Source: Oceanicoccus sp. KOV_DT_Chl
GTDB lineage: Bacteria; Pseudomonadota; Gammaproteobacteria; Pseudomonadales; Dasaniaceae
Length of the DNA: 64,000 nt
Direction of reading: 5' to 3'
Assembly: GCF_900120175.1 (NCBI RefSeq)
Contig: NZ_FQLF01000004.1
Coordinates: 124,001 to 188,000, forward strand
This document shows positions 21,856-28,720 of this stretch, piece by piece. A program made the translations under genes and the position numbers. The notes under the pieces were generated by a model. The model had not been told where the DNA came from. It searched no databases and saw only the letters and a list, made by a program, of their open reading frames with translations. Positions within the stretch are counted from its first letter, which is position 1. Each line of letters begins with the position of its first letter.

Positions 21856-22629
21856 ATGTTTGTAGATTCCCATTGTCATCTTGATCGCCTGGATTTATCG
21901 CCTTACGGTAATAGCCTTGAGGCAGCTGTCGATGCTGCCAGGCAGTGTGGTGTTGAGAGGATGCTTTGCATTGGTGTTGATATGCAAAATGCACAGACCG
22001 TAGTAGATATCGCCAATCAATTTGAAGGTGTTCATTGCTCTGTCGGAGTACATCCAATGGATGTCGCAGATGACTTGGTGGATAGGAACCAGTTACGAGC
22101 GTTGGCGACTCAGCCCAAAGTCGTCGCTATTGGTGAGACTGGACTGGACTATTTTTATTCAAAAGAATCAGCGCTGCTACAGCAAGAAAGTTTCAAGTTG
22201 CATTTAGCGTTGTCTGCAGAGCTTGCCAAGCCAGTGATAGTGCATACTCGGGACGCTCGTGAGGACACTATTCAACTAATCCGTGAATATGGTGATAGTA
22301 GTGTTGGAGGCGTTTTGCATTGCTTTACTGAAAGTTGGGAGATGGCTAAGCAGGCGCTTGATCTAAATTACTATATTTCCTTTTCGGGTATCGTCACCTT
22401 TAAGAATGCAGATACGCTGCGGGAGGTGGCGCGTAAAGTGCCGCTGGACCGGTTGTTGATTGAGACCGACTCGCCATATCTGGCCCCCATACCCTATCGT
22501 GGGAAAAAGAATGAGCCTAAGTATGTGGTAGAGGTTGCCAGCTGCCTTGCTGAATTAAGGGGTTTGCCGATTGATCGAATCGCAGAAATCACTTCAGATA
22601 ACTTCGATAACTTACTGTTTAATAAATAA
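21856..22629 (+). CDS. TatD-family metal-dependent DNase
   Basis: A 257-residue TIM-barrel hydrolase: HCHLD at the N-terminus, the GETGLDYFY Glu, HTRDAREDT, VLHCFTESWE and ETDSPYLAP are the metal-binding and family motifs. TatD-type proteins (the YcfH group at this locus) act as 3'-5' exonucleases or deoxyribonucleases with divalent metals. Its place after holB-pilZ is conserved. No signal peptide. Confidence 0.93.
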   Translation: MFVDSHCHLDRLDLSPYGNSLEAAVDAARQCGVERMLCIGVDMQNAQTVVDIANQFEGVHCSVGVHPMDVADDLVDRNQLRALATQPKVVAIGETGLDYFYSKESALLQQESFKLHLALSAELAKPVIVHTRDAREDTIQLIREYGDSSVGGVLHCFTESWEMAKQALDLNYYISFSGIVTFKNADTLREVARKVPLDRLLIETDSPYLAPIPYRGKKNEPKYVVEVASCLAELRGLPIDRIAEITSDNFDNLLFNK

Positions 22630-22888: not shown

Positions 22889-23671
22889 TCATAAATCCGG
22901 AGGCTCATTTTTTTGACTAAGCGATTCCAGTTGCTGTTCAATCCGGTTGAGTTGTTTTTCTATCTTTTTAAGTCGTTTATTTTCATTTTGATCTCGCTGG
23001 CTTGCGATGAAGTAAGCTGAGGTATTTGCGGTAATCAGAGATAGGAGCACTATACCGAGTAATATCAGGATGCCTGCGATAATTCTGCCTTGCTGGCTAA
23101 CTGGGACGATATCGCCGTAACCGACGGTTGTGGCAGTTATCCAGGCCCACCATATGCCATCGGCAGGCGTGTTGATGGCTGGATCAATGGCCGCAATTAG
23201 ATAGCCTGCGAAAATGATAAAAATGGCACTTACCGCCAGTGTGGCGCCAAGATGGTTGCGGGCAAGGACGCGTTGAATTGACCCTGATAGTTGTAGCATC
23301 AGACTGACGAAAATTAAGATGCGTAAAACGCGCAGCCCTCCTACTGTCGGGCTATCCAGCCAAAGCATAGGAAAGCCACTGATTATGATGACTAGATTAA
23401 GCCAGTTATGCGTCAGGTAGCTTTTAGTGTTATCGACAAGAAGGGACAGCACACAGGTTTCAATAACAAAGAACAGCCAGACCCCCCAGTCAATATAGTT
23501 ATTATGCAGTGTCGCTTGAGTAGTCGTTTCCCAATACCAGCTGATCACTATCCATAACGCGAGTAGAAGTAGCGGTAAGTCCAGTCGCTTGGCCCACATT
23601 TTCGCTCGAGGATTTTCATGGGCGCCTACGCCGCTGAGCCCGATCCAGTCATGCAGTCTCTTGTTGGTCAT
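22889..23671 (-). CDS. Voltage-gated-like K+ channel
   Basis: A 260-residue cation channel with five to six membrane segments. The pore has the potassium filter TVGYGD at residues 182-187, preceded by WWAWITATT. A weak S4-like helix GGLRVLRILIFVSLML has only two or three Arg, so voltage sensing is uncertain. The cytoplasmic C-terminus is a charged coiled coil (ENKRLKKIEKQLNRIEQQLESL) that probably drives tetramerisation; no RCK domain is present. Inner-membrane K+ conductance is the likely role. Confidence 0.88.
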   Translation of the reverse strand: MTNKRLHDWIGLSGVGAHENPRAKMWAKRLDLPLLLLALWIVISWYWETTTQATLHNNYIDWGVWLFFVIETCVLSLLVDNTKSYLTHNWLNLVIIISGFPMLWLDSPTVGGLRVLRILIFVSLMLQLSGSIQRVLARNHLGATLAVSAIFIIFAGYLIAAIDPAINTPADGIWWAWITATTVGYGDIVPVSQQGRIIAGILILLGIVLLSLITANTSAYFIASQRDQNENKRLKKIEKQLNRIEQQLESLSQKNEPPDL

Positions 23672-23798: not shown

Positions 23799-24896
23799 AT
23801 GCCAGCTTTCTTATTGCCGGCAAGCGCTACCATGTTTGGTTTTTTTTATGGAGTAATCGAGGGATTCTATGGTCGGCAATGGTCATGGCAGGCTAGAGCT
23901 GATTACGCTGCTTTTTTGAAACAGTTCGGTTTTGATTGTTACATTTATGCCCCCAAAGGTGATTCGTATTTGCGATCTGACTGGCGTCAGCGGCACCCTG
24001 AGGAGGAATGGGAGAAGCTGCAGAGGCTATCTGCACATTATCATCTCGCGGGTCTGCGCTGGGGGCTGGGTATTTCTCCTCTGGGATTGTCTGAATCTTA
24101 TTCTCATAATGATAAGAGTGAGTTACAGTCGAAAGTTAAACAAATATCTACCTTATCGCCAGACATTCTTTGTATCTTATTTGATGATGTAAGAGGCGAT
24201 ATTGAAGGGATCGCCGAGCGTCAATTGGAGATCGTTGGAGATATTTTAGCCGTCAGTACCGCGGCGAGGCATATCGTTTGTCCGACCTATTATTCATTTG
24301 ATCCTGTACTTGAGCAGGTATTCGGGCCAATGCCTGAGGGGTATTTAGCCATGTTAGGTGCCGGCTTGCCTGCAGAAGTCGGTGTTTTCTGGACTGGAAA
24401 TCAGGTGATATCTCAGCAGTACAACCAGCCGGATTTAGCTAAAATAACTGCGATGCTACAGCGCGCCCCAGTACTTTGGGATAATTATCCGGTTAATGAT
24501 GGTCGGCTGACGAGTCAGTATTTACATTTGGCACCCTACAGTGGACGCTCGGGGGCTCTCGCTCAGTGGACGGCAGGCCATGTGGTGAACCCTATGAATC
24601 AGCCTTCATTGTCTCAATTTGTGTTGCAGACGCTTGCAGCTGTTTATGCGGTGCGTGCTTACTCGGTTGATGATGTGTTAGAGCAGAGTTTTGCTTGGTT
24701 GGGGGACGATCAATTGGCTGAGCAACTAGCTACAGATATGCACAGTTTCCAATTTGAAGGCCTGCAGTCATTGGATGTCCAGGTCAAAACACAGTTATTC
24801 GAGACTTATAGTCGGTTTAATCACCCGGTTGCCGATGAGATAGCAGCATGGTTGGCCGGTGAGTATACGTTTGATCCGGCCTGTTTGACCGGTTGA
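23799..24896 (+). CDS. GH84-type beta-N-acetylglucosaminidase (O-GlcNAcase-like)
   Basis: A stand-alone GH84 catalytic domain. Counting from ATG 23832: GVIEGFYGRQW (residues 7-17), YAPKGD (39-44), the catalytic pair Asp118-Asp119 in ILFDDVRGD, VFWTG (185-189) and WDNYPVND (216-223) match the substrate-assisted active site of O-GlcNAcase and bacterial NagJ enzymes. These remove terminal GlcNAc from proteins or glycans. Starts at 23799 (365 residues) or 23832 (354 residues) are possible; neither gives a convincing signal peptide, so it looks cytosolic, unusual for a bacterial GH84. The isomerase-like gene follows after 27 bp. Fold and catalytic residues are secure; the substrate is not. Confidence 0.88.
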   Translation: MPAFLLPASATMFGFFYGVIEGFYGRQWSWQARADYAAFLKQFGFDCYIYAPKGDSYLRSDWRQRHPEEEWEKLQRLSAHYHLAGLRWGLGISPLGLSESYSHNDKSELQSKVKQISTLSPDILCILFDDVRGDIEGIAERQLEIVGDILAVSTAARHIVCPTYYSFDPVLEQVFGPMPEGYLAMLGAGLPAEVGVFWTGNQVISQQYNQPDLAKITAMLQRAPVLWDNYPVNDGRLTSQYLHLAPYSGRSGALAQWTAGHVVNPMNQPSLSQFVLQTLAAVYAVRAYSVDDVLEQSFAWLGDDQLAEQLATDMHSFQFEGLQSLDVQVKTQLFETYSRFNHPVADEIAAWLAGEYTFDPACLTG

Positions 24897-24923
24897 TAGC
24901 AGCTAAATTAGGAAGGTTGGAAG

Positions 24924-26288
24924 TTGATAATTGATGTCATTGTAAGCGCCGATGATAAGCCGGAACCTTTGGTTGATGCGGCTGTTGCCCGTTTATTGGA
25001 GGGGGATGAGCCTGTATCACGGTTGCAGGTATCTTACCTGTTTGCCCAGTATTGGCTTCCTGGCAAGCCAGTTGTTCAGCTGACGGCTTACTACGCTTTT
25101 GCCCGACGGCATGGCGATGTAGATATCGAGTTTACTGTTAGCAGCGAAAAGTTCGAGTTGGATGAGTCTTCTTCCGACTTCCGTATGTGGTGTCAGCAAC
25201 ATGGCCTTGCGGTGTTTACCACGTCCAGACCATTGTCTCTTGAGCCGATAAAAATCCCTAAGCCATGGGGGCAGGAGATTTGGTTTACGGGTGTAGAGGA
25301 GCGCGGTGTAGTTTTCGCCGTCGGTGAAGGTGGTAAGCAGTTATTGCCTTATATTCTATCCGCACTGCCGAATCGATTGAGTGCCGGCTGTCAGCAAGAG
25401 TTGATTCTGTTAAAGATCCTTGATCCGTTACCAGAGCCGGTCTTTGGTGATTTGTATTTCGAGCTACATCAGCAAAAGCGTGAAGTCTACGTGGTTACTC
25501 ATGTCGATGAGCGCGCATGGCCAGATAAAGTAGGCGCTATACGGTTTGGTTTTAATGCTGCTAAGCGCGCACTATATAGCGATGATGCCGCTTTTAAGCA
25601 GGCATTTGCTCAGTCGGTGCGCCAGTATGAAGCCATTCGCAGGCAGTTGGATGATCGTCTCGATGAGTTGCGTATTGCCGCAGGTTATCAATTAAATGAG
25701 CCTGTAAGTGCTCAGCAGGTATCTGATTGGTTGCTGCAGACACCAGTTGAATTGAGGCAGCAAGAGATTGACCTGCGACAGCACATGGACGCTTTTACTG
25801 ATACGCTGCCGCTTACTGTGGGAGATGTGGTGAAAGTACCGTGTTTAACGCCGCATGCTTTGCAGCACGGGGTTAGGACGGTTGAGTTTCAAACTCCGGT
25901 ATACGAGCGTTTAATTCTGTCTTTTGCGCAAAAAGTGCTTACCCAGGCGCACTGGGATACGGCGCAGGCAGTCGAGCTCATGAATATAGAGTCGCCACAG
26001 CAGCAAGCGCATCAGACTATCTTTGCCAACAAAGGTGTTGCGGTTGATCGTATTGTGGATTTTGAGGATTTTGAAGTTCAACGTGTTGTGTTGGGGGTTG
26101 GGGAGGCGTTGAAAATTAATTCGCCACTGAAATATGGTTTGTTGATGAGTATTGACGCAGGCTTGAAAGCAGGTGAGGTTGAGTTAACGGCAGAGCAGGC
26201 GTTGTTACTGCCGGGCAGCTGCTCGGGTCTGGATTTGTACAATCCTTCATCAAAATCCCTCAGTTTTTTGCTGGCTTACCCTAAATAG
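24924..26288 (+). CDS. Class I mannose-6-phosphate isomerase-like cupin protein
   Basis: A 454-residue protein starting at TTG 24924, seven bases after AGGAAGG (24910-24916). Residues 113-120 (KPWGQEIW) and 300-320 (GDVVKVPCLTPHALQHGVRTV) resemble class I phosphomannose isomerases, with further cupin-like strands to the end. Candidate metal ligands are His182 in FELH (where the family usually has QxH), Glu187 in KREVY and His311 in TPHAL; Arg329 could be the catalytic Arg. About 100 N-terminal residues are not family-like. It is probably co-transcribed with the GH84 gene, which suggests joint action on an amino-sugar or a sugar phosphate. Function is inferred, not established. Confidence 0.6.
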   Translation: MIIDVIVSADDKPEPLVDAAVARLLEGDEPVSRLQVSYLFAQYWLPGKPVVQLTAYYAFARRHGDVDIEFTVSSEKFELDESSSDFRMWCQQHGLAVFTTSRPLSLEPIKIPKPWGQEIWFTGVEERGVVFAVGEGGKQLLPYILSALPNRLSAGCQQELILLKILDPLPEPVFGDLYFELHQQKREVYVVTHVDERAWPDKVGAIRFGFNAAKRALYSDDAAFKQAFAQSVRQYEAIRRQLDDRLDELRIAAGYQLNEPVSAQQVSDWLLQTPVELRQQEIDLRQHMDAFTDTLPLTVGDVVKVPCLTPHALQHGVRTVEFQTPVYERLILSFAQKVLTQAHWDTAQAVELMNIESPQQQAHQTIFANKGVAVDRIVDFEDFEVQRVVLGVGEALKINSPLKYGLLMSIDAGLKAGEVELTAEQALLLPGSCSGLDLYNPSSKSLSFLLAYPK

Positions 26289-26466: not shown

Positions 26467-26551
<85 letters not shown>

Positions 26552-26623
26552 TTTATTCAGATAAAAATATCCCTTCTTGCGCAAAAATTACCTGAACGCA
26601 TTTGGGGTTTAGAGGATTTTTCC

Positions 26624-27949
26624 ATGCAAGTTTCAATTCAGACGACTTCAGGTCTTGAGCGTAAGTTAACAGTAGGTATTCCTGCTGACCGTGTTGATAA
26701 TGAGGTCAATAATCGCTTGCAAAAAGCATCATCGACGGTTCGCCTGGATGGCTTTCGTCCAGGTAAAGTACCAATGAAAGTGATGAAGCAGCGCTTTGGT
26801 GCAGGAGTTCGTCAGGAGGTATTGCAGGAAGTGATGAACCAAAGCTTTAGTGAGGCCGTAGTACAGGAAAACCTTAAGCCAGCAGGTATGCCTAACATTG
26901 AACCCAAGAATCTGGAAGAGGGGCGCGACCTTGAATACGTCGCCACTTTTGAAGTATTCCCTGAGCTGGATTTGAAAGACTACAGTGCTATTACTATCGA
27001 AAAACCAGTTGCAGCTATTACTGACGCTGATATTGATAAGATGATTGCCACCTTGCGTGAGCAGCAATCAACATTGGACGCTGTTGAGCGTGCGGCTAAA
27101 AGCGGCGATACGGTAGACATTAATTTTGCCGGCACCAAAGATGGTGAGGCTTTTGACGGTGGTACTGCTGAAGGTTCCAGCCTGGTACTGGGTTCGGGTT
27201 CAATGATTCCCGGTTTTGAAGATGGCATTGTTGGGATGAGTGCAGGCGAAGAAAAAACCTTGTCTTTATCGTTTCCGGAAGATTATCACGCTGAAGAGTT
27301 GAAAGGTGCTGCTGTTGAATTTGTAGTGACTGTGAATTCAGTTTCCGAGAAAAAACTACCTGAATTGGATGACGCGTTTTTTGAGAAGTTCGGTGTTAAA
27401 GAAGGCGGTGAAGAGCAGTTCCGTAAAGATGTTACCCAGAATATGCAGCGTGAATTGGACAACGGCATTAAATCCAAAACCAAAAATCAAGTGATGGAAG
27501 GGTTGGTTGATATTCATAGCGATTTACAGTTACCTCAGGCGCTGGTTAAGCAAGAGATATCAGGCTTGAAGGGTCAAATGGTACAGCAGTTTGGCGGTGC
27601 CGCTGCTTCTCTGGATGTTGATTCACTGTTGCCCGATGATATGTTTATCGAGCAGGCTGAGCGTCGCGTTCGTCTGGGTTTGATTTTGAACGAATATATC
27701 AGCAAAGAGAGTATTTCTGCTGACCCGGAAAAGGTTAAAGAAACTATTGAAGGTTTTGCTTCAACCTATGAGGATCCTGAAGAAGTGGTAAATTATTACT
27801 ACAGTAACCAGCAGCAGTTGCAGGAAATTCAGGCAATGGTGTTAGAGGATTCTGTAGTCGAAAAGCTTTTATCGATAGCAAAAGTTACTGAAAAGAAATG
27901 CAGCTACGACGAAGTTATGGCTCCTGAGGCATCAGCAGAAGAGGCCTAA
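26624..27949 (+). CDS. tig: Trigger factor chaperone
   Basis: A 441-residue ribosome-bound chaperone and prolyl isomerase. The frame is open from 26510 inside the tRNA, but ATG 26624 after GAGGA gives the normal start MQVSIQTTSGLERKLTV. The ribosome-binding signature GFRPGKVP is present in the N-terminal domain. The FKBP-type PPIase domain spans about residues 150-245 (VDINFAGTKDG...GFEDGIVGM), followed by the SurA-like C-terminal helices. It heads the tig-clpP-clpX-lon cluster. Confidence 0.96.
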   Translation: MQVSIQTTSGLERKLTVGIPADRVDNEVNNRLQKASSTVRLDGFRPGKVPMKVMKQRFGAGVRQEVLQEVMNQSFSEAVVQENLKPAGMPNIEPKNLEEGRDLEYVATFEVFPELDLKDYSAITIEKPVAAITDADIDKMIATLREQQSTLDAVERAAKSGDTVDINFAGTKDGEAFDGGTAEGSSLVLGSGSMIPGFEDGIVGMSAGEEKTLSLSFPEDYHAEELKGAAVEFVVTVNSVSEKKLPELDDAFFEKFGVKEGGEEQFRKDVTQNMQRELDNGIKSKTKNQVMEGLVDIHSDLQLPQALVKQEISGLKGQMVQQFGGAAASLDVDSLLPDDMFIEQAERRVRLGLILNEYISKESISADPEKVKETIEGFASTYEDPEEVVNYYYSNQQQLQEIQAMVLEDSVVEKLLSIAKVTEKKCSYDEVMAPEASAEEA

Positions 27950-28076: not shown

Positions 28077-28720
28077 ATGTCCAGATTTGATCCTAATAGC
28101 ATCAATCAGCAAGAAGTTACTAATTTAGGTTTGGTGCCTATGGTGGTTGAGCAAACTGCCAAGGGTGAGCGTTCCTATGATATTTACTCACGTCTATTAA
28201 AAGAGCGGGTAATCTTCATGGTTGGGCAAGTGGAAGATCATATGGCGAACCTTATCGTCGCGCAGATGTTATTCCTTGAATCCGAGAATCCTGATAAAGA
28301 TATTCACCTGTATATCAACTCCCGGGTGGGTCCGTCACAGCTGGCCTATCGATTTATGACACTATGCAGTTCATCAAGCCGGATGTCAGTACTATGTGTA
28401 TTGGTCAAGCTGCTAGCATGGGTGCCTTCCTTTTGTCTGGTGGCGCCAAGGGCAAGCGCTTTATGCTGCCTAATGCGCGAACCATGATCCATCAGCCTAG
28501 CGGCGGTGCTCAGGGTCAGGCAACTGATATCGATATTCAAGCGCGTGAAATCTTGATTATCCGGGAGCGTTTAAATCACTTGATGGCTGAGCATACCGGT
28601 AAAGACTATGAGACCATCGCCCGTGATACTGAGCGGGATAACTTCATGAACGCAGAAACATCCAAGGAATATGGCCTGGTTGATGAAGTATTGTCCAACC
28701 GTAAGTTAAGTAAAGATTAA
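28077..28720 (+). CDS. clpP: ATP-dependent Clp protease proteolytic subunit, frameshifted
   Basis: The frame runs from ATG 28077 to about 28325 (through HLYINS) and then continues in the -1 frame to TAA at 28720. Adding one C to the CCC run at 28321-28323 restores the invariant SPGGSVTAG segment and a normal 214-residue ClpP. All active-site residues are present: Ser in GQAASMGAF, His in MIHQPSGG and Asp in TERDNFM. ClpP forms the double heptameric chamber fed by ClpX, encoded just downstream. Both halves are highly conserved, so a missed base in the sequence is more likely than loss of the gene. Confidence 0.93.

Follow-up and report, generated by a model that had tools for sequence, protein, structure and literature searches.

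A likely function can be proposed for the GH84 enzyme encoded in the window, by which we mean the whole stretch of 64,000 nucleotides from Oceanicoccus sp. KOV_DT_Chl that was analyzed. Its sequence and distribution suggest that, in this lineage, it acts as the cytosolic exo-beta-N-acetylglucosaminidase in peptidoglycan recycling, where it would serve as a non-orthologous replacement for the GH3 enzyme NagZ. We consider it a probable substitute for NagZ, given that hardly any related bacteria have both enzymes. The proposal draws on GH84 family membership, the active-site residues, the compact form of the protein, the near exclusion of NagZ, the retention of AnmK and the lack of a GT41 match in the genome. 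We infer its substrate, activity and place in the metabolic flow to be as follows: lytic transglycosylases would generate muropeptides of the form GlcNAc-anhMurNAc(-peptide), these would enter the cytosol, the GH84 enzyme would take off the non-reducing GlcNAc by substrate-assisted catalysis using its Asp118/Asp119 pair, and the anhMurNAc released would pass to AnmK. As the intracellular target that carries GlcNAc, a cell-wall fragment appears more likely than a protein.

The enzyme would resemble NagZ both in cleaving GlcNAc off GlcNAc-anhMurNAc(-peptides) in the cytosol and in its co-occurrence with AnmK, but it belongs to GH84 rather than GH3. GH84 enzymes follow an oxazoline route. Their catalysis is assigned to an Asp-Asp pair in the available text of PMC4263850, whereas that of PMC3920638 describes a covalent glycosyl-enzyme intermediate for GH3 NagZ.

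The predicted cytosolic GH84 beta-N-acetylglucosaminidase is encoded on the forward strand at 23832..24896. Its open reading frame matches the NAGidase family PF07555 at 199.3 bits (cut-off 25) and no other Pfam family above cut-off; Pfam revealed no extra modules, and inspection by eye no signal peptide. The Asp-Asp pair and the YAPKGD and WDN motifs are all in place, and FDD, Lys53, Asp129-Asp130 and Trp227-Asp228-Asn229 are invariant in an alignment of 22 sequences that includes the window's. These results bear out the initial annotation of a cytosolic-looking GH84 enzyme with an intact active site. The start that it gave, 23799, probably lies 11 residues ahead of the real one, because relatives begin near ATG 23832 (MFGFFYGVIEG). 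The alignment thus favors ATG 23832 as the probable true start, giving a protein of 354 rather than 365 residues, in whose numbering the Asp-Asp pair is Asp118/Asp119.

Thermobaculum terrenum O-GlcNAcase (TtOGA, 5diy) is the closest solved relative by sequence (E 1.2e-40) and the best Foldseek match to the AF2 model (pLDDT 91.6; E 5e-24); together with the Oceanicola granulosus enzyme (OgOGA; 2xsa/2xsb/7khs) it heads the structural matches. Both share the GH84 barrel and the catalytic residues with the window's protein, and TtOGA likewise has no predicted signal peptide according to the available text of PMC4683255. The window's enzyme differs from the two in length (about 350 residues versus about 450), in its proposed substrate, and in residing in a genome without a GT41 match. 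Since the likeness to these O-GlcNAcases reflects general GH84 features, structure does not decide the substrate. In one family (f8; loci L201-L203 and L219), the sequence EGLYD or EGFYD replaces EGFYGRxW at the start of the GH84 domain; the same family also contains G266, the order's one genome with an intact-looking GH84 and NagZ.

Unexpectedly, the distribution of the two enzymes argues for the NagZ replacement. Model NF003740 matches 211 of the 293 genomes sampled from the order at E <= 0.001, and we called NagZ at E < 1e-30, a threshold chosen in this analysis, which retains 163. The remaining 48 genomes match only weakly, at E of about 1e-4 to 1e-18, and these matches presumably represent other GH3 enzymes. 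With this call, 77 genomes have GH84 only, 161 NagZ only, 2 both and 53 neither. Under independence about 44 doubles would be expected rather than the 2 observed (Fisher 2e-32, without phylogeny correction), and the model's own cut-off, which assigns NagZ to 153 genomes, leaves the same two. In one of them, G109, the GH84 match is broken into pieces of different reading frames (L213), a remnant that would fit decay of GH84 in the presence of NagZ. Both genes look intact in G266, which counts against the proposal. Among the 79 GH84 genomes, 49 have no NagZ-model match at E <= 0.001, and 28, including the window's (best E 4.2e-16), have only weak ones (E 1e-4 to 1e-18); a further argument against the proposal is that these weak matches could be the real stand-in for NagZ in those 28 genomes.

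The complementary pattern is also found at the level of families. Leaving out ten match-less genomes for which no family was shown, 12 of 47 families contain GH84 only, 25 NagZ only, 6 both kinds and 4 neither (p = 0.0004, or 0.0002 if the broken GH84 of G109 is disregarded). Five of the mixed families, namely those other than the family of G109 (f8, f9, f16, f41 and f45), comprise 51 genomes with a family shown, of which 15 have GH84 only, 32 NagZ only, 1 both and 3 neither; in f16, f41 and f45, every one of the 34 genomes of known family has exactly one of the two enzymes. A tree of 52 GH84 sequences groups them mostly by family. This weakens the statistical case, because the 77 genomes then represent far fewer independent events, and it suggests that GH84 and NagZ were exchanged several times rather than dozens of times.

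Outside the order, the class sample of 235 genomes provides 232 more, among which NagZ occurs in 1 of 5 genomes with GH84 as compared with 211 of 227 without it; in other words, it is absent from 4 of 5 versus 16 of 227. The one exception, G508, joins G266 as a genome in which an intact-looking GH84 and NagZ occur together against the expectation of the replacement reading, and the NagZ copies of both contain KHFPGHG...DSH, which we take to be the NagZ motif. The support from outside the order is further reduced in that, of the four genomes there with GH84 but no NagZ, three carry distant GH84s only, scoring 120-161 bits against the order's profile, and in one of these, G337, the FDD pattern was not seen when the sequence was checked.

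AnmK provides the second line of evidence. Its substrate is anhMurNAc, which is released by NagZ and AmpD as described in the available text of PMC5371407. AnmK is present in 75/77 genomes with GH84 only, including the window's (E 5.5e-120), in 157/161 with NagZ only and in both doubles, as opposed to 21/53 with neither enzyme. Genomes with GH84 only therefore resemble NagZ genomes in this respect and differ from those with neither. At the same time, the 21 genomes that keep AnmK with neither enzyme speak against the proposal to the extent that AnmK alone is no proof of it. Nine of them belong to a single family (f40), and the 21 exceptions suggest a third glucosaminidase or missed NagZ copies.

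An alternative is that GH84 trims imported chitooligosaccharides or other GlcNAc-containing oligosaccharides in the cytosol, with the exclusion of NagZ reflecting lifestyle or ancestry. We regard this as unlikely, though it is the most probable of the alternatives. Beta-hexosaminidases are often promiscuous, some GH84-positive species degrade polysaccharides, Gilvimarinus agarilyticus being an example, and the main GH84/NagZ statistics carry no phylogeny correction. Yet this reading does not sit easily with the complementary pattern inside single families or with the retention of AnmK, and no gene for chitin metabolism or sugar transport was recognized beside GH84 in the contexts examined, partly by eye. 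In seven further loci inspected by eye from the starts of the encoded proteins, no functional partner was recognized beside GH84, which counts against the NagZ-replacement reading.

It is less probable still that the enzyme is a true O-GlcNAcase acting on cytosolic proteins, as part of a bacterial O-GlcNAc cycle like that proposed for T. terrenum. GT41 is the family of O-GlcNAc transferases. No GT41 match (PF13844, E <= 0.001) was found in the window's genome, for which we therefore rejected O-GlcNAc cycling, and the family occurs in only 5 of 79 GH84 genomes versus 28 of 214 without GH84. Moreover, such a cycle would leave the exclusion of NagZ unexplained. In its favor, the T. terrenum enzyme is the best solved match by both sequence and structure, TtOGA and TtOGT are reported to be cytoplasmic in the available text of PMC4683255, and GT41 accompanies GH84 in G007, which belongs to the same genus as the window's genome, a combination that also tells against the NagZ-replacement reading.

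The GH84 gene is followed on the same strand by a gene for a diverged class I phosphomannose-isomerase (PMI)-type protein of 454 residues (24924..26288, forward strand), which begins with TTG. The two genes are separated by 27 bp, between the GH84 end at 24896 and the TTG, and a Shine-Dalgarno-like AGGAAGG (24910..24916, forward strand) lies 7 nt upstream of the latter; position, spacing and protein length all agree with the initial annotation. Promoter and terminator scans gave results at chance level only. The pair is flanked on the left by pabC, mltG, tmk, holB, pilZ and tatD and on the right by tRNA-Leu, tig, clpP, clpX and lon. The TatD-family DNase gene that ends the left block (21856..22629, forward strand) and the trigger factor gene tig (listed ORF 26510..27949, forward strand) bound a stretch whose content varies across relatives and may include HrpB, GcvT, FadB, FadA, GH84 and the PMI-like gene. 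Inside its listed ORF, the probable start of tig, judged by eye, is ATG 26624; the tRNA-Leu gene (tag) occupies 26467..26551 on the forward strand. Between tatD and the GH84 gene, the window also contains a reverse-strand gene for a potassium-channel-type protein (Ion_trans_2; 22889..23671), which most relatives examined lack at this position. Further downstream, clpP (28077-28720) is found in two overlapping frames of 136 and 118 residues, the first of which fits the clpP model no further than residue 85. Most relatives have a single clpP ORF of about 205-250 residues, and the split is due either to a mistake in the assembly or to a true frameshift.

The initial annotation had treated GH84 and the PMI-like gene as one functional unit that could be an accessory insertion. 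Their linkage does recur elsewhere. In the order, where GH84 is found in 79 of 293 genomes and the PMI-like gene (E <= 0.001) in 38, they occur together in 20; by match coordinates, they are adjacent in 14 of these, about 4-5 kb apart in five, with FadB-FadA in between, and about 145 kb apart in one (G066). A fixed GH84-PMI operon is nevertheless ruled out by the intervening FadBA and by the genomes with one gene only, the PMI-like gene being missing from 59 of the 79 GH84 genomes and GH84 from 18 of the 38 with the PMI-like gene. The same figures do not support a single functional unit, and an accessory insertion was rejected for GH84, which is present in all ten genomes of the window's family; the PMI-like gene is found in eight of them. 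The scenario in which GH84 frees a sugar that, once phosphorylated, becomes the substrate of the isomerase is the least probable of those considered, for despite the adjacency in 14 of 20 genomes and a co-occurrence above chance (GH84 in 20/38 PMI-like genomes versus 59/255 others; p 0.0003, without phylogeny correction), it is contradicted by the many single-gene genomes, by the 11 PMI-like genomes that carry NagZ instead of GH84, by the FadBA genes between the two in five genomes, and by PMI chemistry, which uses a free 2-hydroxyl that GlcNAc lacks.

A scan of named genomes points in the same direction. Taking the best 80 of 231 loci encoding the PMI-like protein, 79 of which yielded its ORF, GH84 lies within the retrieved sequence in 22 and directly upstream in 17, fadA is directly upstream in 23, and tig is present in 63 and directly downstream in 47, making it the commonest named neighbor; in these counts some loci are cut at contig ends and spurious ORFs are included as neighbors. 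Another group has the PMI-like gene away from tig (L085, L089, L090 and L093, as well as L157 and L171), and in several of these loci the neighbors resemble, by eye, genes for an Ada/AlkA-type protein, an Ogt-type methyltransferase and malate dehydrogenase. Given the varied gene content between tatD and tig, the GH84/PMI-like pairing is real and recurrent but facultative. In our reading, the PMI-like gene is a separate, facultative gene whose closeness to GH84 reflects the gene order before tig.

The class I PMI fold of the second protein was confirmed by its structure model; sequence searches gave weak results. No Pfam family reached its cut-off, and the manA model TIGR00218 scored 14.6 bits, well below the required 116.2. 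Among 26 aligned members of the family, six, including the window's, match TIGR00218 at E <= 0.1 (best 1.5e-7), and the best Pfam model reaches an E no better than 6e-4. A sequence search of the PDB returned nothing at E <= 1, a profile search returned just one chance-level cupin (E 0.31), and the profile comparison with Escherichia coli ManA was weak (probability 3.7), pairing the region of His311 with His255. The AF2 model built from 78 sequences, on the other hand, has a mean pLDDT of 95.3 and a pTM of 0.92, and its first 17 Foldseek matches are all PMI chains, one of them labelled putative, led by Bacillus subtilis PMI (1qwr_A; E 2.7e-16, TM-score 0.72 by target length, 14% identity).

The protein thus shares the fold of class I ManA enzymes (1qwr, 5zt4-5zvx). 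When residues are paired by motif rather than on coordinates, Lys164, His182, Lys185, Glu187, His311, Glu321 and Arg329, all invariant in the 78 sequences, correspond to Lys86, His99, Lys132, Glu134, His255, Glu264 and Arg274 of the E. coli enzyme. The seven reference residues are named in the titles of Salmonella PMI mutant structures and are also found in E. coli ManA. Seven of the eight ManA catalytic and metal residues are therefore kept. The exception is Gln97, which we take to be a metal ligand, replaced by Glu180 in all 78 sequences. The protein also departs from ManA in about 100 extra N-terminal residues, in having 14% identity to its best structure, and in falling under the manA cut-off. 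The assignment as a class I PMI-like protein, with isomerase-type metal residues in place, is supported, and as the genes are also linked in other genomes, neither outcome that would have refuted the initial annotation was observed. The protein is most likely an active metal-dependent isomerase, and most likely an aldose-ketose isomerase of a hexose 6-phosphate, with mannose 6-phosphate as the first guess. The genome encodes a type II GMP/PMI (733 bits), so a missing PMI is no obvious reason for the gene; no TIGR00218 ManA match was found there at E <= 0.001. The window's protein and its 77 named relatives, with 51 invariant positions and no fitting Pfam model, make up a well-conserved PMI-fold family, a second and separate finding of lesser interest.

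Titles and abstract openings of the open-access papers retrieved contained no proposal that GH84 replaces NagZ, which is weak evidence of novelty. In the available text of PMC3920638, PMC3660660, PMC5371407 and PMC13046382, GH84 is connected with recycling only as an off-target of NagZ inhibitors. The available text of a 2014 review (PMC4263850) describes the physiological function of many bacterial GH84 enzymes, which carry extra domains or secretion signals, as doubtful and wholly unstudied. Several such bacterial enzymes serve as structural models for human O-GlcNAcase. A role in cell-wall recycling, if correct, would settle the function of the compact cytosolic GH84 group and explain why many marine Gammaproteobacteria have AnmK yet lack NagZ. 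We raise, tentatively and with some doubt, the broader possibility that compact cytosolic bacterial GH84 enzymes, including those used as models of human O-GlcNAcase, are generally muropeptide glucosaminidases that displaced NagZ several times, such that the native substrate of the "bacterial O-GlcNAcase" may be a cell-wall fragment. If the replacement of NagZ proposed here is correct, it would also mean that hydrolases of unrelated families can take each other's place at one step of an antibiotic-relevant pathway.
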